This document shows, piece by piece, positions 6,351-30,570 of a stretch of DNA of 51,763 nucleotides (position 1 is its first letter; each line of letters begins with the position of its first letter). This DNA is from Candidatus Methanophagales archaeon (GTDB lineage Archaea; Halobacteriota; Syntropharchaeia; Alkanophagales; Methanospirareceae): NCBI GenBank assembly GCA_017883965.1, contig JAFNKG010000009.1, positions 1-51,763 on the forward strand. Direction: 5' to 3'. A program made the position numbers and the translations under genes. The notes below the pieces were generated by a model. The model was not told the origin of the DNA. It worked only from the letters and a program-made list of their open reading frames with translations, and searched no databases.

Positions 6351-6379
6351 TTCTTCTTCCCTCTTTTTTAACTGGTTCC

Positions 6380-7456
6380 CTATTCTATCACTCCGGTAAC
6401 GACGGCAAGTCTTTCTGCTGCTTCATAAGTGAGTCCCGAATCGCCCAATATTGTATATCTACCGGGATTTATTTTGTGAGCGTAGGTCAGCGCTTCTATT
6501 ATATGTTCCTCTTCTATGCCCAAATCCTTTGCGGTTGTTGGAGCGCCTATCTCTTTCAGCACTTCTCGAATTTGTTGCCAGTTCTCTCCATACAGGTTTG
6601 TCATCATTATGGTGCCAACACCGCACTGCTCGCCATGTAAAGCCGGATTCTCAGCTATCATATCCAGAGCATGACTGAATTTGTGTTCAGAACCAGAAGC
6701 AGGGGCTGATGACCCTGCGATGCTTATTGCAACGCCACTGGAAACCAACGCCTTTACGACCGTCCAGGCAGATTTTTCATCCTTTTCCCTTATTTCCTTG
6801 ACGTTCTCCATTATCATATTCGCAGTCATCTCAGAAAGAGCCGCGGCGTAACTGCTGAATTCCGCATCCCTTAAGCGGTGTGCGAGCCGCCAATCCCGGA
6901 CAGCGGTGTAGTTGGCAAGAAGGTCGCCACAGCCAGCAGCAGTGAACCTGTAAGGAGCCGAAGATAATATCTTTGTATCCGCGACAACCGCCAGTGGTGA
7001 ATGTGCCTGTATGGAGACAGGACTGCCTCTGTCCTTATCCTTCATAGATGCTCTTGGCGACGCTATTCCATCGTGAGATGCGATAGTAGGTATAGAAATA
7101 AAAGGAATGCCGAGTTCAAAAGAGGCTATTTTACCCGTATCTATGATAGTTCCGCCACCGATGCCGAGCATGAACTCCGCTTTATCCTCCGATGCCATTT
7201 TTTTCACGCCTTCTATGTTTTCCCCGTTTATAGAACTCACTTCCATCAGGTTGACTTCGTATCCCTCATCAGATAAAATCTCACGCACTTTCTCACCTGC
7301 TATCTTTCTTGTGTGCCTACCTGTAACAATAAAAGCCTTTTTACCCACCTCTAAGTGCTTGCACACCGTGCCTATCTCCCGTAGGACACCATGACCAATC
7401 AAAACATCCCTCGGCAATTGCATCCATTTTACTTTTTCAAATATTTCCATTGTCAT
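6380..7456 (-). CDS. egsA: sn-glycerol-1-phosphate dehydrogenase
   Basis: LGIGGGTIIDTGKIAS...PTIASHDGIASPRAS...HGEQCGVGTIMM. Confidence 0.93.
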   Translation of the reverse strand: MTMEIFEKVKWMQLPRDVLIGHGVLREIGTVCKHLEVGKKAFIVTGRHTRKIAGEKVREILSDEGYEVNLMEVSSINGENIEGVKKMASEDKAEFMLGIGGGTIIDTGKIASFELGIPFISIPTIASHDGIASPRASMKDKDRGSPVSIQAHSPLAVVADTKILSSAPYRFTAAGCGDLLANYTAVRDWRLAHRLRDAEFSSYAAALSEMTANMIMENVKEIREKDEKSAWTVVKALVSSGVAISIAGSSAPASGSEHKFSHALDMIAENPALHGEQCGVGTIMMTNLYGENWQQIREVLKEIGAPTTAKDLGIEEEHIIEALTYAHKINPGRYTILGDSGLTYEAAERLAVVTGVIE

Positions 7457-9794: not shown

Positions 9795-11849
<2,055 letters not shown>

Positions 11850-11884
11850 GGGTAGGGGCAGAGGGCAGAAAGGTGGTTTATGAG

Positions 11885-13615
11885 ATGATAAACCTCGACA
11901 TGGCACGGATTTTTGACGAGATTGCAGATATTTTGGAAGTGAAAGGAGAGAATCAGTTCAGGATAAGAGCGTATAGAAAAGCAGCCCGGACGATAGAAAC
12001 GCTTACGCAGGACTTGAAAGTGATAGCAGAGCGAGGTGGAGTTAGCGAATTAAAGAAAATACCGGGGGTGGGAGAAGGGATAGCGAAGAAGATGGTGGAG
12101 ATAGCAGAAACAGGGGATTGCAAGAAACACGTGGACTTAATGCGAGAAGTGCCACCGGGCTTGCTTGAACTCTTAGCCATTCCTCGTGTCGGTCCGAAGA
12201 CAATAGCAAAGGTGCATGAAGAGCTTGGGATAAATAGTATAGAGGAATTGGAGGAATCGGCTAAATCGCACAAGTTGGAAGGGCTCCCTGGATTGGGTGC
12301 TAAGGTAGAGGAGAATATATTGAAAGGGATAGAGCAATACAGGAGTTATAAAGGACGTGCATCGCTTTCTAAAGCGCTTCCTTATGCGGAATCAATAGTG
12401 AACGAGTTGAAGAAGTTAGATGCAGTGGAGCGGATAACGATTGCGGGCAGTTTGCGCAGAATGCGTGAGACGATAGGAGATATAGATATATTGGTAGCAT
12501 CGAAGCGACCGAAGGAGGTAATGGATGCGTTTACGAATCTTGAGGGCATCGAAGACGTGATAGGAAAGGGGGAAACGAAATCCTCGGTTACAATAAAAGG
12601 AATCAATGCAGATTTACGCGTGGTGGATGCCGTTTCATTTGGCGCTGCCGCTCATTATTTCACCGGCTCCAAGCATCATAACATAAGAATACGGGAATTA
12701 GGCGTGAAGAACGGGTTAAAGATAAATGAATACGGTATTTTCAGAGGCGATGAGAGGATAGGAGGGGAGGACGAGGGAGATGTGTTCGAGAGTGTTGGTC
12801 TCGCGTATATTCCACCGGAGTTAAGAGAAGACCGGGGTGAGGTAGATGCCGCTAAGGAGAACGGAATACCGAAATTGGTGGAAGAAAGCGATATAAAAGG
12901 CGATTTGCACGTGCATACGAAATGGAGCGACGGAAAGAACAGCATAGAAGCGATGGCGGAAACTGCTATTTCATCAGGTTATGAGTATATCGCAGTGGCA
13001 GACCATTCTCCTGCGGTAGGTATTGCCGGTGGGATGAATGATGAGAAAATAGCGAAACGGCAGGATGAGATAGACAGTGTAAACAAGAGATTTGAAGATG
13101 AAGGTGCTAATTTCAGGGTTTTATCCTCTGCGGAAGTGGATATAAAGTCAGATTTCTCTATGGATTTTCCCGATGAGATATTGAGGAAGTTGGATGTGGT
13201 CGTGGGTGCGGTTCACACTAAATTCTCTCAAGATAGAGACACGATGACGAAGCGAATCGTAACCGCAATGGAGAACCCTCACGTGGATATAATTGCGCAT
13301 CCCACAGGTCGTATTTTAGGAAAAAGGGACCCGTATGAGGTGGATATGGAGAAGCTTATGGAAGCGGCAAAGGATACTGGCACGATAATGGAATTGAATT
13401 CGTTCCCTGACAGGCTCGACCTTAACGATATACATTGCAAGATGGCGAAGGGTTATGGCGTTTTGGTGGCAATCTCAACGGATGCGCATGATGCGATGCA
13501 GATGGGTGCTGTGATAAGGTATGGCGTGGCAACTGCTCGACGTGGATGGCTTGAAGCTAAGGATGTGGTGAATACGAGGGGGTTGGATGGAGTGTTAAGA
13601 GTGCTGAAAAGATAA
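11885..13615 (+). CDS. polX: DNA polymerase X family protein with C-terminal PHP exonuclease domain
   Basis: HhH repeats, GSLRRMRETIGDIDILV pol beta motif, PHP motifs DLHVHTKWSDGKNS, AVADHSPAVGIAGG. Confidence 0.96.
   Translation: MINLDMARIFDEIADILEVKGENQFRIRAYRKAARTIETLTQDLKVIAERGGVSELKKIPGVGEGIAKKMVEIAETGDCKKHVDLMREVPPGLLELLAIPRVGPKTIAKVHEELGINSIEELEESAKSHKLEGLPGLGAKVEENILKGIEQYRSYKGRASLSKALPYAESIVNELKKLDAVERITIAGSLRRMRETIGDIDILVASKRPKEVMDAFTNLEGIEDVIGKGETKSSVTIKGINADLRVVDAVSFGAAAHYFTGSKHHNIRIRELGVKNGLKINEYGIFRGDERIGGEDEGDVFESVGLAYIPPELREDRGEVDAAKENGIPKLVEESDIKGDLHVHTKWSDGKNSIEAMAETAISSGYEYIAVADHSPAVGIAGGMNDEKIAKRQDEIDSVNKRFEDEGANFRVLSSAEVDIKSDFSMDFPDEILRKLDVVVGAVHTKFSQDRDTMTKRIVTAMENPHVDIIAHPTGRILGKRDPYEVDMEKLMEAAKDTGTIMELNSFPDRLDLNDIHCKMAKGYGVLVAISTDAHDAMQMGAVIRYGVATARRGWLEAKDVVNTRGLDGVLRVLKR
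13469..13615 (+). repeat. polX 3' end, duplicated copy 1 (inside intact gene)
   Basis: Aligns without gaps to 14612-14758, including a ~60-bp identical core. Confidence 0.95.
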
Positions 13616-20188: not shown

Positions 20189-21364
20189 ATGGAATATTTT
20201 AGAGAGTTAGGCATTATAACGCCTATTTTGAGAGCGATAGAAGACGAACAGTTTGAAAAGCCAACGGAGATACAGGAGAAATCGATTCCTTTAATCCTTG
20301 CGGGACAGGATGTTATAGCAGGGGCAGCGACAGGTTCTGGTAAGACGCTTGCTTTTGCTTCTGGCATTATTCAGAACGCGGAGAGAGGAGAAGGAATCCA
20401 GGCGCTGGTATTAACACCAACGCGAGAACTGGCACAGCAAGTTGCAACCGCGTTAGCGGATTTTTCAAGATACACGCCGTTGAAGATCGTTGCTGTTTTC
20501 GGCGGTGTGTCAATCAATCCGCAGATTGAGCAATTGAGGTACGCGGATGTTGTTATAGGAACGCCGGGCAGAATATTAGACCATATCGGACGAAGAACGA
20601 TTGATTTGCGCAGAGTAAATACGCTGGTACTGGATGAAGCAGACAGGATGCTGGATATGGGATTTATTGATGACGTGGAGCAGATAATACGAAAATGCCC
20701 GCGTGAAAGGCAGACGCTATTGTTTTCTGCTACCATTTCACGAGAGGTAGCGCGTCTTGCGCGGAAATACATGAACGAGCCTGTTCAGGTCGCGGCAGAG
20801 ACGTATGTGGACCCGAAGAAGTTAACGCAGTTTTACTATGACGTCCCGGATAATATGAAATTCTCGTTGTTGGTTCATTTATTGCGACACGAGAAAGCAG
20901 GGCTTGTCATGGTCTTCTGCAATACAAGGAAGAATACGGACTTTGTGGCAAACAACCTCAAAGCGGCGGGGATAGATGCGCTGGCTATTCATGGTGGGCT
21001 TACGCAGGATAGGAGAAACAAGGTGATGAAGCAATTTCATGGACAGAATGTCTCTGTGCTTGTCTGTACTGATGTCGCGGCACGAGGGCTTGATATTCCC
21101 GGTGTCTCGCATATTTACAATTACGATATTCCGAAAGACCGCAATGATTATATTCATCGCATAGGGCGAACCGCACGGGCGGGCAAAGAAGGAAGAGCGA
21201 TTAATATCCTTGCAAGCAGTGATTACGATAGCTTTAGACGAGTAATGAGACTCAAGGATGTGACTATAACAGAAGAGAAGCTGCCTGAGGTAAAGAAAGA
21301 GAGTATACGATGGAGAGAACGGCCGAAAACTGTTAGACCCGGGCATAGAGCTTATAGGCGATAA
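20189..21364 (+). CDS. DEAD-box RNA helicase
   Basis: AATGSGKT, PTRELAQQ, DEADRM, SAT, HRIGRTARAG. Confidence 0.97.
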   Translation: MEYFRELGIITPILRAIEDEQFEKPTEIQEKSIPLILAGQDVIAGAATGSGKTLAFASGIIQNAERGEGIQALVLTPTRELAQQVATALADFSRYTPLKIVAVFGGVSINPQIEQLRYADVVIGTPGRILDHIGRRTIDLRRVNTLVLDEADRMLDMGFIDDVEQIIRKCPRERQTLLFSATISREVARLARKYMNEPVQVAAETYVDPKKLTQFYYDVPDNMKFSLLVHLLRHEKAGLVMVFCNTRKNTDFVANNLKAAGIDALAIHGGLTQDRRNKVMKQFHGQNVSVLVCTDVAARGLDIPGVSHIYNYDIPKDRNDYIHRIGRTARAGKEGRAINILASSDYDSFRRVMRLKDVTITEEKLPEVKKESIRWRERPKTVRPGHRAYRR

Positions 21365-21409
21365 AGTATGGTGATAGCAGTATGTCCGCTGTTAGATGAA
21401 GTGCGTATT

Positions 21410-22011
21410 CTACCCAAATGCAAATTTGCGGCGCTTATCAGGGTCATCAAAACTAACCTCTTCCACCTCAAAATGTTCTGCGTCAAATTCTCCACCAAGC
21501 CACTCCAACATCTCTTCATATTCCTCATGATTGGGATTTTTGATGATTTCTAAAAGCTCTGCATATCCCCAGATGCCACCACAATCTTCAGGTGGGCATG
21601 CTCTTTTTCCTTTGATACATATCGGATAATCAACACCTTTCTCTCTGGGAAGTATCTTTTCCAATTGTATTTTGTGCTCCCATGTATCACCGAAATCATA
21701 TACATAATCTGCCGTGCGATTTTCCATAGAAAAATAGTCGGCTATTTTTTGTTTCCGTCCTGAAAGGACTTCTCTACCAAATGCTTCATCATCCGGAGCT
21801 GGGATTCCTATATTCTCCTTTAAACCAGTTGATGGATTGACTATTTCGAATTCATGGAGATGATAATCTGACCACCCCATAGCGTCTTGAATGGCGACAT
21901 GTAAGTCCCAAAATGTATAATTTCCGGGACCTGTATCCGCCGCCAAATCGGTGGTCTAATACCCTTTAGCGTAATTTTAAATTGGTACACCTTGTTGAAT
22001 TTCTTTTTCAT
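21410..22011 (-). pseudogene. Plasmid pRiA4b ORF-3 family protein, single-nucleotide frameshift near 21924-21932
   Basis: Frame 1 from ATG at 22011 reads MKKKFNKVYQFKITLKGIRPPIWRRIQVP; other frame continues GNYTFWDLHVAIQDAMGWSDYHLHEFEI. Confidence 0.9.
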
Positions 22012-22083
22012 TGTGATTTTTCCTTATCTTGATTGGAATGTTTTTATCTTTTATACTTTTTTGGTATTTGGAAGATGCATTTC

Positions 22084-22167
22084 GGCTAACGTTTTCGGTG
22101 TAAAAGAAGTTCGGCGAAGCCGAATTTGGACGGAGTGAAGTGTAGTCTTTTACACCGCGTTATACGC
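22084..22167 (-). repeat. attC-like site A
   Basis: minus: GCGTATAACGCGGTGTAAAAGA...CCAAATTCGGC-TTC-GCCGAACTTCTTTTACACCGAAAACGTTAGCC. Confidence 0.87.
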
Positions 22168-22200
22168 TGTGCCGTGCTGATATGAAATATCATTTCTAAA

Positions 22201-24384
22201 CTAAAAATCATCTCTTTCTTCTTCAATTTTTGCTCGCTCAATCTGTCGATCCAATGAGGATATATACTCATCAATCCATCGTTTTACGTTCTCGTTATCT
22301 TCTTCTCTTTTGAACTCAAGCAACTGTTGTTTTTTTTCCTGATAGTGTAAACTTGCTGGGCCACTCCAACCTTCTGTTGAAAAGTTTGCCATTAAATTCC
22401 TTCGCACATCTTCTCGTGTACCATATCGCATAAGCACTTCTCGTGCTAAGCAGATTTTTCCCTCCTCTCGAAAAAGTTTTTTAGGAACAAAACTGGCAAG
22501 ATACCATGCACGATTTTCCACATCTTCATCAACCCACCCCAAAATTTTCTCCAAATGGATCATCGGCAATGCTCCTTCCTCTCCCCTTTCAAAAAATCCG
22601 CGACCTCGCAGCCATTCTTTTATATGAAACGCCCGTGAATCTATTGGCGGACCTAAATATCTTGTGACCCGCATCCAGACCTCTTCAGGATATAGCCGTG
22701 TGATTTCGTTGAGCACAGCTTGAGTTTGTGAGCGGAAACCATCGAGGATGGTATCATCTTCCCCAAAGTGCTCAAGCATTTTGTCCGCAAGTTCTAGACT
22801 CTTTCTAGGATAAAGTTGCACAAAAGATTTCCCTATCTCAGTCCAATAATAGTCATCCATTTGATCACGTCTGCCTGCTTCAGGTTTTTGAAATAGTAAC
22901 TGATGCGTCAATAATTCCAGTGTTAGTTCTTCTGGCAAAGTGTGTTTAGACGCCCTACTAAGATAGTAAAAATGGTAAAAACCCAACGCAATAGAGACGG
23001 CGTAAGTGTCTGAACTATCAAGTAAAAACTTAATCCAGTTGTTGAAGACATGCTTGGACAGATTTAGAATATCGTTTCCCCAACCAAACATCCGAAAGTG
23101 ACTAATACCAACGATGCCTTTTTCTGCGAGATCGATGATACGCAAAAGCGCCTGATCAGTCATCCCTGATCGCCACGTCAATTCAGGGACCAAGACATTT
23201 AATTTTTTGTCTTTCGTAAGGGCATCCAGTTGCTTTTCCCACATCTCTTGTTTTTTCTCAAAGATGGCACGGAAATATCCATCAAGTAAATAGGCGCTTG
23301 CATTCTCGACTGCGTTTCGTTGCGCTTCGAGAAGTGTCGGCAAGAGCGAAAAATCTTTATCTCTCTTTCCCAGTTCATATCCAAAGCGGTAACCATTCTG
23401 TGCTTCGGTTGTCATCAGCCAGTTTAACTCTGGTTGCAACAAGTTGATATTTTCAACTGCTTGCCGGGCAAATTCTTCGATTCGCGGTTGTGCTTGGTCT
23501 ACCTGATTACCTTCTTCGTCAAATTTATCTTCAAAAACACGCATACCAACATAGCGTTTCATTAGTGATGAAAAATCGCCCCCGGTGAGTTCATCTTTAA
23601 GCTGTCCCCAACGCTGCAGGATTTGGGGTGGTAACTCCTTTCCATCATAATGGAGAATACGGATGACCTCGACAAGTACATTCTTTTTATCTACATAGGG
23701 TTTTTCTGTTAATTCGTTCACTGTGTCAATGACCATGTCTGCTAAGTTCTGAATTCTTCCCAATCCTCTGGAGCGATGAAGGAGAATACTAATCGCCTGT
23801 TGCTGTTCATCTTCCGGTAAATTATCTAATTGTTCACGTAGCAGTTGCCATACTTGCCGATATGCATCAAATAACTCTCCGTATGTTTTTGGCATCCAAA
23901 GCTGAGGTTCTTTTCGAAGTCCTTGTCGCTCAGCTCCAGTGTGGCGGACGAAATGCTGTGACTCCAATGCCTGATCGCAGGCACGCAAAGCGAGCACTCG
24001 TCGCTCTTTTGAGTTAGAGCCCAAAGCCTCTTTAAGAATTGGTAATCGTTCTTGTGGAGATGCTTCTGTCGGAGCAACGCGTCCATATCCAGAAGAAAAG
24101 AGTTCTGCAAAAACACCACTGGCGTTATTTGACCATGTTTCGTTCTCTGCTTCACCAAGAGCTAGGAGTAATCTTGCCGCATCTGCAAATAATTCTTTCC
24201 ACATTGCAATCTTTTCAAGCGCCCGAATTACTTCTCTACGACCTGTGGTAAATTGCAAAAGATCCTCTTTGGTCCATGTACCAACAGTTCTTTTGAGACA
24301 TTCTAATGCTGATTTTGGGTCAGCCTCAGCTAAAGCTAGAAATAAACGCGCCCCTTGTGTTGTTTTTAGATAATTAGTTTTCAT
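22201..24384 (-). CDS. C-terminal part of large STAND-type NTPase (second ORF; in-frame ATG at 24384; ORF track starts at 24480)
   Basis: Helical-repeat-like protein directly following the P-loop ORF, 11-nt overlap ATGAAAACTAA if ATG at 24384 is used. Confidence 0.6.
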   Translation of the reverse strand: MKTNYLKTTQGARLFLALAEADPKSALECLKRTVGTWTKEDLLQFTTGRREVIRALEKIAMWKELFADAARLLLALGEAENETWSNNASGVFAELFSSGYGRVAPTEASPQERLPILKEALGSNSKERRVLALRACDQALESQHFVRHTGAERQGLRKEPQLWMPKTYGELFDAYRQVWQLLREQLDNLPEDEQQQAISILLHRSRGLGRIQNLADMVIDTVNELTEKPYVDKKNVLVEVIRILHYDGKELPPQILQRWGQLKDELTGGDFSSLMKRYVGMRVFEDKFDEEGNQVDQAQPRIEEFARQAVENINLLQPELNWLMTTEAQNGYRFGYELGKRDKDFSLLPTLLEAQRNAVENASAYLLDGYFRAIFEKKQEMWEKQLDALTKDKKLNVLVPELTWRSGMTDQALLRIIDLAEKGIVGISHFRMFGWGNDILNLSKHVFNNWIKFLLDSSDTYAVSIALGFYHFYYLSRASKHTLPEELTLELLTHQLLFQKPEAGRRDQMDDYYWTEIGKSFVQLYPRKSLELADKMLEHFGEDDTILDGFRSQTQAVLNEITRLYPEEVWMRVTRYLGPPIDSRAFHIKEWLRGRGFFERGEEGALPMIHLEKILGWVDEDVENRAWYLASFVPKKLFREEGKICLAREVLMRYGTREDVRRNLMANFSTEGWSGPASLHYQEKKQQLLEFKREEDNENVKRWIDEYISSLDRQIERAKIEEERDDF

Positions 24385-25993
24385 TTTGGAACGGACCATT
24401 TTCTCCGAGAAGTTCTTTAACAATACGGGTGGCAACCTTAGATTCCGCCGCATATTTGAACATTTCATAAAACCATTCAAGTAGTGTTGGGGGTAAGTCT
24501 TCAGAAAAATCTTCTAAATTGAATGTAGAACCATAGGTATCCCACCACTCAGTCCACAGCTCAATATGGAGCAATTTAGGTGTGATATAGAGCCTATTTT
24601 CACCCTGAAGAATTTTTCGTGCTTTTAGCTTATTTATGATCTCTTGAAACCTTGACCAAGTGATTTGTGGATCTCCTTGATTGACTATTTCAGCTATGGC
24701 TTGCGCTTCGGCGACAACAGATCGCCCATAACCAAATCGTTTAAAAAGTGCGATGTGCCGGAGGACTAATCGTCTCTGTTGTACTTGTTGACTATCAGGA
24801 TCATCCCCACCTACAACATAGCGATCCCAGATATTAACTGTATCTGGAGGTTTCAACAAATCATCGGGATTATTTTTTAAATTCAATCCAATGACATGCG
24901 CCACTCTGGGAGAACCGCTACACAATTCTGGCCATCTATCCGCTTGATCTTTAGGAATATTATATCCCTGAATTATGCTGCTTACCTCTTCGTTGTCCAA
25001 CGGTGGTGTATCGAAGTAGTTTATGTTGCCAGCAGTATCATCGTATTCATTATAGATTGAGACGAGTTTAATTCTTGGACCGCGATATTTAAGTTTATTC
25101 CAGATATATGATCTACTATCTGGATCGCATTCATCAATAACTATGATTACAGAAAATTGATTGTCATCTCTTAAAATCTCGTTCATTAGGTCACTATCTC
25201 TAAACTTGCTAGCAGCATCGCAGTAAATAACAAGTGCTCGCAAATCGTCTGCGCGTGTTGCTTCTAAAACAAGTCTCGTTTTACCAATTCCAGCATCACC
25301 CCACACATGTATATGGACTGCCTCGCTGTTTTTACGCAGTTCATTTTGCATATTTGATATGAAATCTTTCTGCGCTTGTCCTGCTTTAAATTCTTTCTTC
25401 ATTTCACCATCTTGAGACCAACTTTTGTGTGTCTGAAATCTTGCTCTCTCTCGCTCATTGACTTGCAACGCTAATGATGGAAACGGTTTGAGGAAGCCAA
25501 TAAGGTTGTTTTGTCGCCATATTTCAATCTTTGCTTTATCGTATTTCTGATCAATGCTGGTCAATTTCCCCTTGAACTTATTGATGAGTTGGTCATCTTT
25601 GGTTTCTGGATTATCCCAACCAAATAGCACGACAACCAATGTTCCGTTTTTGTCTAAACAAGACTTGACTCGGATTTTAAGTTCGGTAGACCTGTCCTTA
25701 AACAAGATTTTTTTAATATGACTATCGTCGCTTAGAGAAAAGTTACCAGTTTTAATTTGGTAACGAGTCAGATCTTGTTTGATGATTCCCTGTCCACCGT
25801 TCACCTGCATATGTTGTACTTCGGCATCTATACCTCCATCTGCAACAGTAATTGCACTCGGTACATTGGTAAGATTTTTTCCGATTCCAAGAACAGTCGC
25901 TTCTGCCCAAAGCAATTCACGGAAAAAATCCACCGCTTCTTGGGGGCTCAGGCGTTCCAAATGTTCATTCTTGACGGTGAGAATTGTCTCCAT
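24374..25993 (-). CDS. STAND-like NTPase with N-terminal PD-(D/E)xK-like nuclease region (putative defence protein)
   Basis: GGIDAEVQ...RYQIKTG nuclease-like motif; Walker A GDAGIGKT; Walker B VIIVIDECD. Confidence 0.7.
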   Translation of the reverse strand: METILTVKNEHLERLSPQEAVDFFRELLWAEATVLGIGKNLTNVPSAITVADGGIDAEVQHMQVNGGQGIIKQDLTRYQIKTGNFSLSDDSHIKKILFKDRSTELKIRVKSCLDKNGTLVVVLFGWDNPETKDDQLINKFKGKLTSIDQKYDKAKIEIWRQNNLIGFLKPFPSLALQVNERERARFQTHKSWSQDGEMKKEFKAGQAQKDFISNMQNELRKNSEAVHIHVWGDAGIGKTRLVLEATRADDLRALVIYCDAASKFRDSDLMNEILRDDNQFSVIIVIDECDPDSRSYIWNKLKYRGPRIKLVSIYNEYDDTAGNINYFDTPPLDNEEVSSIIQGYNIPKDQADRWPELCSGSPRVAHVIGLNLKNNPDDLLKPPDTVNIWDRYVVGGDDPDSQQVQQRRLVLRHIALFKRFGYGRSVVAEAQAIAEIVNQGDPQITWSRFQEIINKLKARKILQGENRLYITPKLLHIELWTEWWDTYGSTFNLEDFSEDLPPTLLEWFYEMFKYAAESKVATRIVKELLGENGPFQNEN

Positions 25994-26037
25994 ATCCGTT
26001 TTCCCATTAACTTTTCCCTATTTTGACACGGGATTGC

Positions 26038-26133
26038 GTATAACGTTTCTCGCATATACGACGTTGCGATCGAATGGTGCAATGTCCCGATGGGCAAGCA
26101 CCGAAGGTGTGCAGCGTGTATGCCGTGTTATCT
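26038..26133 (-). repeat. attC-like site B
   Basis: minus: CAGATAACACGGCATACACGCTG...CGTCGTATATGCGAGAAACGTTATAC. Confidence 0.82.
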
Positions 26134-26156
26134 GACGTCTGACATCGTTGAAAATG

Positions 26157-26309
26157 TCACTCTTCCTTTAGTCTTGAAACTATTTTGTAGTTTCGTTTCT
26201 TTTCATTATTCCGCAAGTTTTGAAAGAAGATGTGCAGGTCATAATTTGCTTGTTTTGCAAGCTCTTCACCTGCTTTGCGGATATCTTGAACAATTGGGTC
26301 TTTCCACAT
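26157..26309 (-). CDS. Small partner protein of VapC-like module (likely antitoxin)
   Basis: MWKDPIVQDIRKAGEELAKQANYDLHIFFQNLRNNEKK immediately downstream of PIN gene. Confidence 0.65.
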   Translation of the reverse strand: MWKDPIVQDIRKAGEELAKQANYDLHIFFQNLRNNEKKRNYKIVSRLKEE

Positions 26310-26311
26310 AC

Positions 26312-26611
26312 TTACACCTCCATTAACTCTTCTGGTGTACAAATAATTACTTGAGCCATTTTCTCAACCTTGTCGTTTAATTCCAGATGAGGAAAATCTT
26401 TTAGCTCTTCCAACCTTCTTTTGGCAGCCTCTGGGTCACCAAAACTGGCTTCTTCAATTACAATTTCAGAGATGAAAACGTTGTATCGCCTCATAGCTAT
26501 AGGCCACCACTGTCGTGTAATCTCCTGATGAGCAAGAACTATGATATCTCGATTGGGTTTAGAAGTATAATAGCTTACAACTGTTGTCTCAAGATATATT
26601 GATTCTTTCAT
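26312..26611 (-). pseudogene. VapC-like PIN toxin with apparent internal in-frame deletion (~99 aa left)
   Basis: N-terminus MKESIYLETTVVSYYTSKPNRDIIVLAHQEITRQWW; VEKMAQV joined directly to C-terminal IICTPEELMEV; central PIN motifs absent. Confidence 0.7.
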
Positions 26612-26652
26612 TGAGATATCTTTTGTATTATCGCTATATAAAGCCAGATGGC

Positions 26653-26748
26653 AGATAACGGTTTGAGCATACCAGAAGTTGCCGTAGCGCAGCGAAGGCA
26701 ATTTGGGTGGAGCGACGAAGGAGCGGAACCTGGTATGCTCTGTTAGGC
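26653..26748 (-). repeat. attC-like site C
   Basis: minus: GCGCCTAACAGAGCATACCAGG...ACCCAAATTGCC...GGCAACTTCTGGTATGCTCAAACCGTTATCT. Confidence 0.87.
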
Positions 26749-26770
26749 GCTGTGCACTTCTTTCTCGATT

Positions 26771-27661
26771 TCATCTTTTTACCTCTGCCTGGACAAATCG
26801 CTCAATATCAAATTCTTTTACTGTTTTAAGTAAATCAAGGTCAACCAATTTTGAATAACGTTCTTGCATCTCCACTGAATCAATATCTTCAATAAGAGTA
26901 AGGGAGTATTGGAAAAGATAATCTTTCATATCTGCCGGATCCAAACCAAATATAAAGACAGGATTTTTCTTTTTAAGCATATATTTAGCGAGTCTTTTTA
27001 TACCATCATGGATGTATTTACCATTAATAAAACTCTTCAGGATATAACTAAAGACAATTTTACTCCCAGGAGCAGCCTGTGCTACATATTTGAATGTACT
27101 ATCATTCGCTTCTTTTGAGATATATTGTGTAACTGCTTCCCAGATAAAAAGAGTCTTAGAAGTCAAATTGTATCCTGCCTTTTTTAATTCAGCATCAAGA
27201 CTTTGCTTCTGAAAATCAATGGGAACATAAGCAACATGATCTGGAAGCTCTCCTAATATTTTTTTCATTTTTTTAATTTTCTTTTTTATTACTGTTGGAT
27301 GGTCAACTTCAAAGTAACGTATCTTTTCTATACCTGGAATATAATACGCACGGCAATCTATTCCAGAACCCAGGTTGACAACTGTCTCAACTTCCTTTTT
27401 TGTAAGACTATCTTTTAATATATCATCTACATAACGTTCGCGGCAAAAAAACCATCCCATGAATCCAGGAAAAGCTTTTTCTCTCGACTTTATAATGGAA
27501 TCACGTTTTTTAGGATTACGCATGAGAATAATAAAAAATCTATAAAGTAGTGGCAACAATTTTTCAGAATATGGGTCTTCAAAAAGTCGCTTTTCTTTTG
27601 GATATGACATCATTGCAGCTCTTGTCCAAGCAACACCGACTCCTGTTTTAATTGCTTTCAT
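26771..27661 (-). CDS. Class I SAM-dependent methyltransferase, leucine carboxyl methyltransferase-like family
   Basis: VVNLGSGIDCRAYYI; FEVDHPTVIKKK; LFIWEAVTQYI. Confidence 0.85.
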   Translation of the reverse strand: MKAIKTGVGVAWTRAAMMSYPKEKRLFEDPYSEKLLPLLYRFFIILMRNPKKRDSIIKSREKAFPGFMGWFFCRERYVDDILKDSLTKKEVETVVNLGSGIDCRAYYIPGIEKIRYFEVDHPTVIKKKIKKMKKILGELPDHVAYVPIDFQKQSLDAELKKAGYNLTSKTLFIWEAVTQYISKEANDSTFKYVAQAAPGSKIVFSYILKSFINGKYIHDGIKRLAKYMLKKKNPVFIFGLDPADMKDYLFQYSLTLIEDIDSVEMQERYSKLVDLDLLKTVKEFDIERFVQAEVKR

Positions 27662-27690
27662 AAATACCCTCCTCATTATATTAGCATGGC

Positions 27691-27775
27691 GCCTAACGTT
27701 CTCGGTGTATGCGAAGTTGCCCAGTAGGGCAATTTGGGTGAGCCCAAAGGGCGAACAGCATACACCGTGTTGTCC
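27691..27775 (-). repeat. attC-like site D
   Basis: minus: GGACAACACGGTGTATGCTGTTCGCCC...ACCCAAATTGCCC-TACT-GGGCAACTTCGCATACACCGAGAACGTTAGGC. Confidence 0.9.
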
Positions 27776-27847
27776 GAACCCGTAAGGGTTGAAGCGTAAG
27801 CGGAAAGTGCCAGAGCCCGCCTGAATTTCGACAGATCATAGTACAGT

Positions 27848-29116
27848 CTATTTCGTTTTATTCTGAATATATCTTTTCTGTAACCATTCTATGAACCTGT
27901 CAACCGATGCTAGTGTTTTTTGTCTTTCAGATTCTCCTGCTATGTCCATTCCGTGTGTATGCAGATACCCACTTCCATGAGAGATAGCAGCAATAAGGTA
28001 TACTTCACCAAATTCTGGTCTATTCCCCCTGATTAGAGGAATACACTCCTTCGTCTTTTCTGTTAGTGCACGAAATTCTGAAACTTTCTTTTCTCCACCA
28101 ATGTCAGTAAGCACACCAAATTTGTTGATGTCCTCCTCGGTTTGTGTTACATCCAATGGATATGGTCCAGAATGCTTATCTGTGTCGCCTGTGGTTTGGG
28201 CATGAAATTCTTTCCATAAGAGGGTACCACGAAAAGGTAATAGTTTTTTCATTTCTTCTACGTAGACAGCATCACCATATAGTCCAATTTTTGAGGGTAG
28301 ATAAACCTCTCCCTCTACTAAAGGAATCTTCTCTCCTTTATTTTTTACATCCCAACCATAGAACAATGGGAAACCTCCTGCGCATACAAATATTCCTCCG
28401 GTAAAGATATAGTCCTCAATGATACTGAAAATCACCTTTTTCTTAATATCAATTTCTGGATAAACCTCACCGAACGGATTAATTACTGCTGAGTATCTGT
28501 TAGATATCTGCGATGCTGAGATAAATTCAACATCATACTTTGCATTTCCATCATCTGTTTGTAATCTGCCGAGATGTTCATGCCATTCAGCGGATGAAAT
28601 AGAAGTCGATGGAGATTCGTTACATTGAACTTCATTACCTCTATCTTCTGAAACGTGGCCATTGAGAATAGCTATTTTAATCGGAAAACAAAGCTTTATG
28701 GATCTTTCGATAGTATCTAATAGCGTGAGCATTTCTTCTGTGTCACTCAAAGCATAATTTGCATCACGTTCTGAGAATGCTATTTTCGGCGGTAGACCTA
28801 GATTTTGAAATCCGTATCTAGTTAAATTACGAGATTGTTGCAACCAACGATCCGATATTACCATTGCTTTAGCAACTTTTTCCTTTAAATATGGTGTCTT
28901 TTGCCCTATTCTCTCCAACTCTGCGCCTATATAATGTTCCCGTTTATATTCGACATCCATGAACTCAAGCATCGATTTTCCCGCGAACTCAATACCCTCT
29001 TGGGTCCTGATAATGCATTCGGGGTATCTATAATGCAATTTCTGTTTCCTTGCCTCTCTTAGTGCACGTCTTGCTGTAGCTGAATAATAGAGAGCTTTTT
29101 CAATAGTTGTAACCAT
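27848..29116 (-). CDS. HEPN-like N-terminus fused to class I glutamine amidotransferase-like domain
   Basis: ALYYSATARRALREARKQKLHYRYPECIIRTQEGIEFAGKSMLEF (HEPN-like); KIAILNGH...YSAVINPFGEVYPE...IEDYIFTGGIFVCAGGFPLFYG. Confidence 0.55.
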   Translation of the reverse strand: MVTTIEKALYYSATARRALREARKQKLHYRYPECIIRTQEGIEFAGKSMLEFMDVEYKREHYIGAELERIGQKTPYLKEKVAKAMVISDRWLQQSRNLTRYGFQNLGLPPKIAFSERDANYALSDTEEMLTLLDTIERSIKLCFPIKIAILNGHVSEDRGNEVQCNESPSTSISSAEWHEHLGRLQTDDGNAKYDVEFISASQISNRYSAVINPFGEVYPEIDIKKKVIFSIIEDYIFTGGIFVCAGGFPLFYGWDVKNKGEKIPLVEGEVYLPSKIGLYGDAVYVEEMKKLLPFRGTLLWKEFHAQTTGDTDKHSGPYPLDVTQTEEDINKFGVLTDIGGEKKVSEFRALTEKTKECIPLIRGNRPEFGEVYLIAAISHGSGYLHTHGMDIAGESERQKTLASVDRFIEWLQKRYIQNKTK

Positions 29117-29202
29117 ATATTTGCACCACCATTTTCTTCCCAAAGTGAAGGTAATGAGATATTCTCTCTAATAGAGGGACGGGCTCTGGCATTTCGGACA
29201 AC

Positions 29203-29318
29203 TTCGGTATATCTGCAGTATTGCATATATCACTCCAATTTGGCATTATATCCGCATTGCGTATACCCTTCCATTTTGGTATTATATCCGCAATATTGCG
29301 TATATATATCCCTCTGAA
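29203..29318. repeat. About three imperfect tandem repeats (36-40 bp) abutting the first cassette start; possible attI-like region
   Basis: TTTGGCATTATATCCGCATTGCGTATACCCTTCCAT / TTTGGTATTATATCCGCAATATTGCGTATATATATCCCTCT / CTTCGGTATATCTGCAGTATTGCATATATCACTCCAA. Confidence 0.6.
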
Positions 29319-29350
29319 TGAACCTCCTATCTCCTTGATTTTCCTTCTTT

Positions 29351-29662
29351 TCATCCTTTTACACCTCCTCCGTTCTCTTTCTCAAACAAATTATCTAATG
29401 GGCTTTTTATCTTCCCTATATCCTTATTACTCACGTGAGTATATATTTCTGTCGTCTTCGAACTTTTGTGCCCCAATAGTTCTTGAATATACCTCAAATC
29501 TACGCCGCTTTCCAATAAATGTGTTGCAAAACTGTGCCTTAAAGAATGAACGCTAACTTCTTTCCCTATCTTTGCTTTTTCAGAAGCTTGCTCAAAAATT
29601 GCCTGAACTGTCCTCGTGGATATGTGCTTTTCAGGCTTTATTCCCTTCCAAAACATCCCCAA
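29351..29662 (-). pseudogene. 5'-truncated tyrosine recombinase/integrase (catalytic C-terminus only)
   Basis: [78 protein letters not shown]; box I arginine region missing. Confidence 0.88.
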
Positions 29663-29682: not shown

Positions 29683-30570
29683 TTACACCATCCCCAGCCC
29701 TTCCAGCACCCTCCTCAACTTCTCCACGTTCTCTTCACTCAACGCACCCAGCGGCAGCCGTACATGCCCTGCCGGCAGCCCCATCATCTCCGCTGCTTTC
29801 TTCACAGGTATCGGATTCGTCTCCAAGAACATCGCCTCAAACAGCGAAAACAGCCGTATAGTAATCTCCTTCGCCTTCTCCACTTCACCTTTCAACATCG
29901 CATCCACCATCTCGCACATCGGCTTCGGTGCGATATTTGCCGTTACCGAAATCACGCCCTTTCCACCTAAGCTCATTATAGGAAGCGTGAGGAAATCATC
30001 ACCTGCAACGACGGTGAAGTCCAACCCCTGTTCCGTGACCGACCTTATAATCGCTCCTACCTGTTTCAAATCGCCCGAAGCCTCCTTCACTCCTTTTATG
30101 TTCTCCACCTCTGCTGCAAGCTCTACCTGTGTTCCTGCACTTACATTTTGACCCGTTCTCGAAGGTATGTTATACAAAATCAAAGGAATCTCCACAGCAT
30201 TACCAATTCTCTTAAAATGCTCCTTTAGCCCTTTCACATTCGGTTTGTTGTAATAAGGCGTAATCAAGAGGCAAGCGTCAGCGCCCGCATCTTCCGCATA
30301 TTTCGTGAGCTCTATCGCCTCCTTTGTGTTATTCGACCCCGTCCCTGCTATCACCGGCACCTTTGAACAGTCCACCACCACATCTATCACTTCCTTATGC
30401 TCTTCATGCGAAAGCGTTGCGGATTCGCCAGTCGTGCCACACGGGACTATCCCCGCTACGCCGCCCTCTGTCACATATTCCACAAGTCCCCTCAAACCTT
30501 CCTTATCTATCTCGTCATCCTTTGTAAACGGCGTTATAAGCGCCGGATACACACCTTCTATCTCCATCAT
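29683..30570 (-). CDS. dapA: 4-hydroxy-tetrahydrodipicolinate synthase
   Basis: GVYPALITPFTKDDEID...GTTGESATLSHEEH...PLILYNIPSRTG. Confidence 0.95.
   Translation of the reverse strand: MMEIEGVYPALITPFTKDDEIDKEGLRGLVEYVTEGGVAGIVPCGTTGESATLSHEEHKEVIDVVVDCSKVPVIAGTGSNNTKEAIELTKYAEDAGADACLLITPYYNKPNVKGLKEHFKRIGNAVEIPLILYNIPSRTGQNVSAGTQVELAAEVENIKGVKEASGDLKQVGAIIRSVTEQGLDFTVVAGDDFLTLPIMSLGGKGVISVTANIAPKPMCEMVDAMLKGEVEKAKEITIRLFSLFEAMFLETNPIPVKKAAEMMGLPAGHVRLPLGALSEENVEKLRRVLEGLGMV

Follow-up and report, generated by a model that had tools for sequence, protein, structure and literature searches.

Canonical integrons, whether class 1 or sedentary chromosomal, place an attI site at the head of an array of cassettes that share one orientation, vary in content and are delimited by G^TT boundaries and by attC sites with an R''/L''/L'/R' layout. 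Their integrase, IntI, is held to have arisen from a Xer-like recombinase through the gain of the I2 helix, which has been reported from no other protein and with which canonical IntI reads extrahelical bases (PMC7790495). IntI1 reportedly needs I2 to capture cassettes (PMC7790495; PMC8138268), and Smyshlyaev et al. describe the integron insertion as not fully conserved in an integron-like subgroup, yet essential for function (PMC8138268). Integrons are also known from archaeal MAGs, as an earlier note on the DNA studied here rightly said: Ghaly et al. 2022 reported mostly CALINs, with attI downstream of intI, cassettes crossing between domains, and IntIs bearing the IntI-specific domain (PMC9668308). 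In the reverse integrons of Treponema, the integrase is transcribed towards attI and the cassettes, and is treated as an IntI and grouped with the IntIs (PMC3607928).

Here we describe an array on a contig of a methane-oxidising Candidatus Methanophagales archaeon, within a stretch of 51,763 nucleotides that we call the window. It shares with canonical integrons the array itself, the G^TT boundaries, the R''/L''/L'/R' layout, the attI at the head, the single orientation and the variable content. However, its integrase family lacks I2 and carries an additional N-terminal domain, the integrase runs in the same direction as the array, and the attC sites have 1- and 5-nt spacers and a 12-bp arm, where class-1 attCs have 5- and 6-nt spacers and a 7-bp L box with a bulge; a canonical class-1 attC model does not match them. 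Like the systems of Ghaly et al., it sits in an archaeal MAG, has attI downstream of the integrase and holds a cassette with a cross-domain match, but the family is set apart from those IntIs, by their description, in having no IntI-specific domain. It also shares the direction of transcription of the Treponema reverse integrons; that study found no integrons in termite-gut Treponema (PMC3607928), where relatives of the family occur. Finally, the recombinase core without I2 is that of XerA, XerC and XerD, which resolve dimers, and most full-length members of the family pass the NCBIfam XerA_Arch model; the family instead has attI and attC sites with cassettes, and groups with IntI. Literature searches for integrons found nothing for Methanophagales and incidental mentions only for ANME-1, whilst the literature searched, with most subscription journals and preprints outside its coverage, held no description of I2-less integrons. 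We are confident that this array belongs to a sedentary chromosomal integron of Methanophagales (ANME-1) with a decayed integrase of its own, and that the family of this integrase most likely recombines attI with attC.

A cassette array and its attC sites

The integron resides on an archaeal chromosome, because the window contains genes for an archaeal L15e, an archaeal-type AdoMet synthetase and a CCA-adding enzyme. Elsewhere in the window, an NAD+-dependent DNA ligase gene (9804-11849), here in an archaeon, is followed by a PolX-like gene (11846-13615).

The four attC-like sites proposed in the earlier note, on the minus strand at 27691-27775 (site A), 26653-26748 (site B), 26038-26133 (site C) and 22084-22167 (site D), were all confirmed in the sequence. 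They have one geometry in common. The site contains an internal loop, large and confined to one side, together with an AAATT/AACTT asymmetry that is conserved. The inverted pairs described in them need one correction: the outer pair abuts R'', at 1 nt on one side and 5 nt on the other. When the entire window was scanned on both strands for the pattern AAC-(0-2 nt)-arm...arm-(3-6 nt)-GTT, the three best matches were sites A, B and D (arm scores 12, 11.3 and 10, against a chance expectation of 0.1 per strand at a score of at least 10 in 40 first-order Markov shuffles), all with 1 nt after AAC and 5 nt before GTT; mismatches in the imperfect arm of site C put its score under the cut-off. Across 15 Methanophagales sites, the outer 12-bp arm is 92.8% paired versus 66% in shuffles, and contains 47 compensatory cells versus 13, with far lower values when slid. 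Folded as single-stranded DNA, three of the four sites beat shuffles on either strand (z about -5 for site A and about -4 for site D), the exception being site C.

These same 15 sites, the four of the window included, were used to build a covariance model, R2. It matches each window site, as members of its own training set (E 4.9e-13 for site A, 5.5e-10 for site C and 1.9e-14 for site D, with site B also recovered), and has no match in four class-1 integron plasmids. A second model, R1, built from a narrow set of 12 class-1 attCs, recovers class-1 sites but has no match in the window, nor in five of the new arrays; because this set is narrow, we do not take its misses to prove that the sites would escape IntegronFinder. 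Rfam at its gathering threshold reported a single tRNA only.

The first bases of an integron cassette (GTTRRRY) and its terminal R'' box have a common origin in one attC, and the start and end of a cassette are therefore expected to be complementary. Indeed, over 8-10 bp every cassette start here is perfectly complementary to the R'' box of the same cassette, which is the G^TT boundary signature of integrons: GTTGTCCGAA/TTCGGACAAC in cassette 1, GTTAGGCGC/GCGCCTAAC in cassette 2, GTTATCTG/CAGATAAC in cassette 3 and GTTATACGC/GCGTATAAC in cassette 4. All cassettes lie on the minus strand, and their genes are co-oriented and mutually unrelated, just as had been claimed. Cassette 1 (27697-29202) carries a HEPN-domain protein gene (27848-29143; PF05168, 7.3e-09), cassette 2 (26659-27696) a SAM-dependent methyltransferase gene (TIGR00027; 26771-27676), and cassette 3 (26044-26658) a PIN-like gene (26312-26701) with a small second ORF. 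Cassette 4 (22090-26043) encodes a PD-Lambda-4-like defence protein, divided between an ORF at 24374-25993 and a second, overlapping one at 22201-24480, which match positions 3-385 and 559-1276 of the PADLOC model PDLC03991; these ORFs (22201-25993) are probably one anti-phage gene broken by a frameshift, a case of a defence gene carried as an archaeal cassette. Cassette 5 (21365-22089) holds a gene of the PRiA4_ORF3 family (21410-21946) and ends in a truncated fifth attC, an R''+L'' half at about 21380-21398 on the minus strand that was missing from the earlier list. Beyond this distal end of the array lies a DEAD-box helicase gene on the plus strand (20189-21364). As a separate observation, the flanks of cassette 1 (29182-29206 and 27769-27820) contain inverted copies, GTTGTCCGAA...TGCCAGAGCCCG, that are longer than the R boxes need.

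One cassette has a counterpart in another domain. Cassette 3 and the second cassette (6352-7093) of a Nitrospinae array, L081, are 82% identical at the DNA level along about 570 bp, and the match takes in the R'' sequence GACGTCAGATAAC; the archaeal copy has an internal deletion, with about 170 bp absent relative to its counterpart. The L081 contig looks like part of a bacterial (Nitrospinae) chromosome, because it carries genes for an L25-like ribosomal protein and a peptidyl-tRNA hydrolase, which appear bacterial from their translations alone.

An integrase remnant, attI and the dapA anchor

Directly downstream of dapA (29683-30570, minus strand; PF00701), which serves as the chromosomal anchor, lies a truncated integrase gene (29351-29662, minus strand) encoding the C-terminal 103 aa of a tyrosine recombinase (PF00589, 1.2e-23). 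This remnant matches both TIGR02249 (2.6e-30) and XerA_Arch (2.9e-27) under their cut-offs, and is 73-79% identical to full-length relatives; about 240 N-terminal residues are gone, including the first catalytic Arg/Lys region. An attI, recognised by its conservation, follows on the minus strand (29203-29340). It is made up of three palindromic repeats, each imperfect and about 30 bp long; the final one ends in GATATACCGAA, and cassette 1 starts with GTT exactly at this end. The earlier suggestion of a CALIN that has lost its integrase was therefore not borne out, since a truncated integrase and an attI head the array.

A search of the same genome for integrases, as the earlier note had proposed, recovered two further remnants: one on contig C70 has lost its middle, and one on contig C53 is reduced to the tail. 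Behind each lies a related attI, and the first cassette differs from locus to locus. No intact copy turned up in the assembly, which is 92.7% complete, and the arrays of this genome are therefore probably static, unless an integrase is encoded in the part that is missing. On C53 (L006, 358-1108), the integrase tail and attI are followed by a TIR-like first cassette, and a transposase-like fragment lies beside this locus at the contig end.

In related genomes, dapA is followed by an integrase and/or attI in G049, G004, G006, G024, G019 and the same-genus G023 (Methanophagales archaeon CSMAG_1265); the order dapA-integrase-attI is kept in G049, G004 and G006, and decayed in G023, G024 and G019. 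Neither element follows dapA in G007. In other Methanophagales, attI is conserved downstream of the integrase, with a different cassette next to it each time. Comparing cassette presence and absence between these loci, as had been recommended, reveals turnover at the level of sequence: cassettes 1, 2 and 4 vary, having attC-level matches at most, or none, in the loci compared, whilst cassette 5 is conserved, with a 90% identical copy in G023, where it sits beside the same helicase (94% identical) and where attC sites are also found.

An integrase family without I2

The window copy is too short to be judged for I2, but its full-length relatives are unambiguous in missing the IntI-specific insert of roughly 40 residues. 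The spacing from KDR to HxLRH is 59 aa in the family, versus 99-101 in five IntIs and 52-62 in XerA/XerC; in alignment with VchIntIA (PDB 2A3V), 26 residues of the family face 68, whereas XerA (4A8E) aligns without interruption. An alignment also shows that the family has no counterpart of the IntI region that bears the ALERKYP-type motif. The best relative reaches 239 bits against the TIGR02249 cut-off of 265, in a match that is broken at the missing insert, around model positions 180-234; the XerA_Arch (NF040815) cut-off is passed by most full-length relatives. In a tree of 41 rows, where IntI and Xer are sparsely represented and branches are long, the family groups with IntI, apart from XerA/XerC/XerD (support 100/99), and is sister to, and outside, a clade of the IntIs themselves (98/97). 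A predicted structure of the integrase (mean pLDDT 80, pTM 0.52) has 2A3V as its best PDB match, followed by XerA. A role in XerA chromosome-dimer resolution, raised by XerA_Arch being the best-scoring model, was rejected on the attI/attC context and the position in the tree.

Scanning a genome collection placed further members in a wide range of lineages, including Methanophagales, Archaeoglobi, Altarchaeum, Micrarchaeota, Nanohaloarchaeota, Undinarchaeales and Methanoperedenaceae among archaea, and also Nitrospinae, Nitrospirae, WOR-3, Atribacterota, Spirochaetes, Dehalococcoidia, Clostridia and others. Intact relatives lie upstream of, and co-oriented with, attI and chains of cassettes, five long in Brucepastera (a complete genome), four in Nitrospirae, and three each in Halanaerobacter and Acididesulfobacillus. 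At about 17 archaeal and bacterial loci, a GTT 79-145 nt past the integrase stop complements the first downstream R'' over 7-12 bp, mostly 9-10 bp, and adjacent site pairs are complementary over at least 9 bp in 15 of 26 cases, versus 4.8% of random pairs. R2 also matches many sites at integrase loci outside its training set, bacterial ones too, mostly on the integrase strand and downstream.

Sites and integrases also co-occur among genomes, most of which are MAGs. R2 sites were found in 51 of the 53 genomes of the order and in 56 of 197 in the phylum; they were present in all 19 phylum genomes with an integrase, full-length or fragment, versus 37 of the 178 others (Fisher p 3e-12), and none of the 141 site-less phylum genomes has an integrase of the family. 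Four further matches (G060, G069, G079 and G088) were set aside as XerA on their missing N-terminal part and their overlap with XerA calls. About a third of integrase loci with enough downstream DNA have no recognised sites, and many site-bearing Methanophagales genomes have no detected integrase. At loci L126-L139 of termite-gut Treponema, I2-less relatives occur with no recognised attC downstream, and the sites there may be of another type.

Readings, a proposed mechanism and implications

How, then, should the locus be classified? The earlier reading of an integron-type array in an archaeal chromosome holds for the array and its variability, but not for membership of the canonical IntI/attC system, because the class-1 model R1 finds no sites and the integrase family has no IntI-specific domain; in every other respect tested, the locus looks integron-like from its sequence. 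It is possible, if rather unlikely, that the family is the archaeal IntI clade of Ghaly et al. 2022 with its missing I2 overlooked, a reading that overlaps with our own. In that study too, attI lies immediately downstream of intI, two atypical Spirochaetota IntIs are the nearest relatives, and three of the six IntIs are too short or partial over the IntI-specific domain; however, the archaeal IntIs are stated to have this domain and were selected with its profile, and the main text mentions neither ANME-1 nor Methanophagales (PMC9668308).

We consider it improbable that the array is an ordinary CALIN, in which canonical attC cassettes were assembled by a canonical IntI acting in trans or since lost, and the neighbouring recombinase is unrelated. 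The R/L box architecture would fit, as would the lack of an intact integrase in the assembly, and many archaeal integrons are CALINs (PMC9668308). Yet cassette 1 begins exactly where attI ends, behind an integrase remnant, and the same layout recurs with an intact integrase in many genomes; the class-1 attC model is blank in the window, and no canonical IntI scores over the cut-off in the 53 genomes of the order or in six other genomes with arrays, so that none was found able to serve them. That the sites are instead palindromic REP/MITE-like repeats or Xer/dif-type modules is scarcely credible: they are palindromic, multi-copy and intergenic and the recombinase is Xer-like, but they are asymmetric, with a single orientation and fixed G^TT boundaries, cassette starts complement cassette ends, the arms covary while their sequence varies, and the cassette genes are unrelated. 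We therefore favour a decayed chromosomal integron over a stray CALIN, because an integrase remnant and attI head the array and the host is a member of the Methanophagales.

For such an integron, we posit by analogy with known integrons that the integrase would bind attI in double-stranded form, at its core and its palindromic repeats; attI lies about 80-150 bp past the integrase stop, with the repeats followed by ..GAA^GTT. Its partner would be an attC most likely acting as folded single-stranded DNA, a hairpin of the form AAC-N-12 bp arm ... arm-N5-GTT, and strand exchange at G^TT would insert a circular cassette next to attI. The family's integrase is the most likely catalyst of this attI x attC reaction. 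As I2 is reported to be necessary, an integrase that works on attC hairpins without it would have to select the strand by some other means; perhaps the internal loop and the AAATT/AACTT asymmetry could set the choice of strand.

On balance, we lean towards a second, ancient lineage of integrons that works without I2, is common to archaea and bacteria and occurs almost universally in ANME-1. If this is true, cassette recombination at folded sites either predates I2 or does not need it, and the lineage largely escapes the current detection of integrons, as this depends on the I2 domain. A widespread I2-less sister group of IntI, found on arrays of attI and hairpin sites, makes the question of I2 directly testable, and isolates exist in Halanaerobacter, Brucepastera and Acididesulfobacillus. 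Our results suggest that surveys requiring the IntI-specific domain miss a cross-domain system of gene exchange, present in nearly every ANME-1 genome examined.
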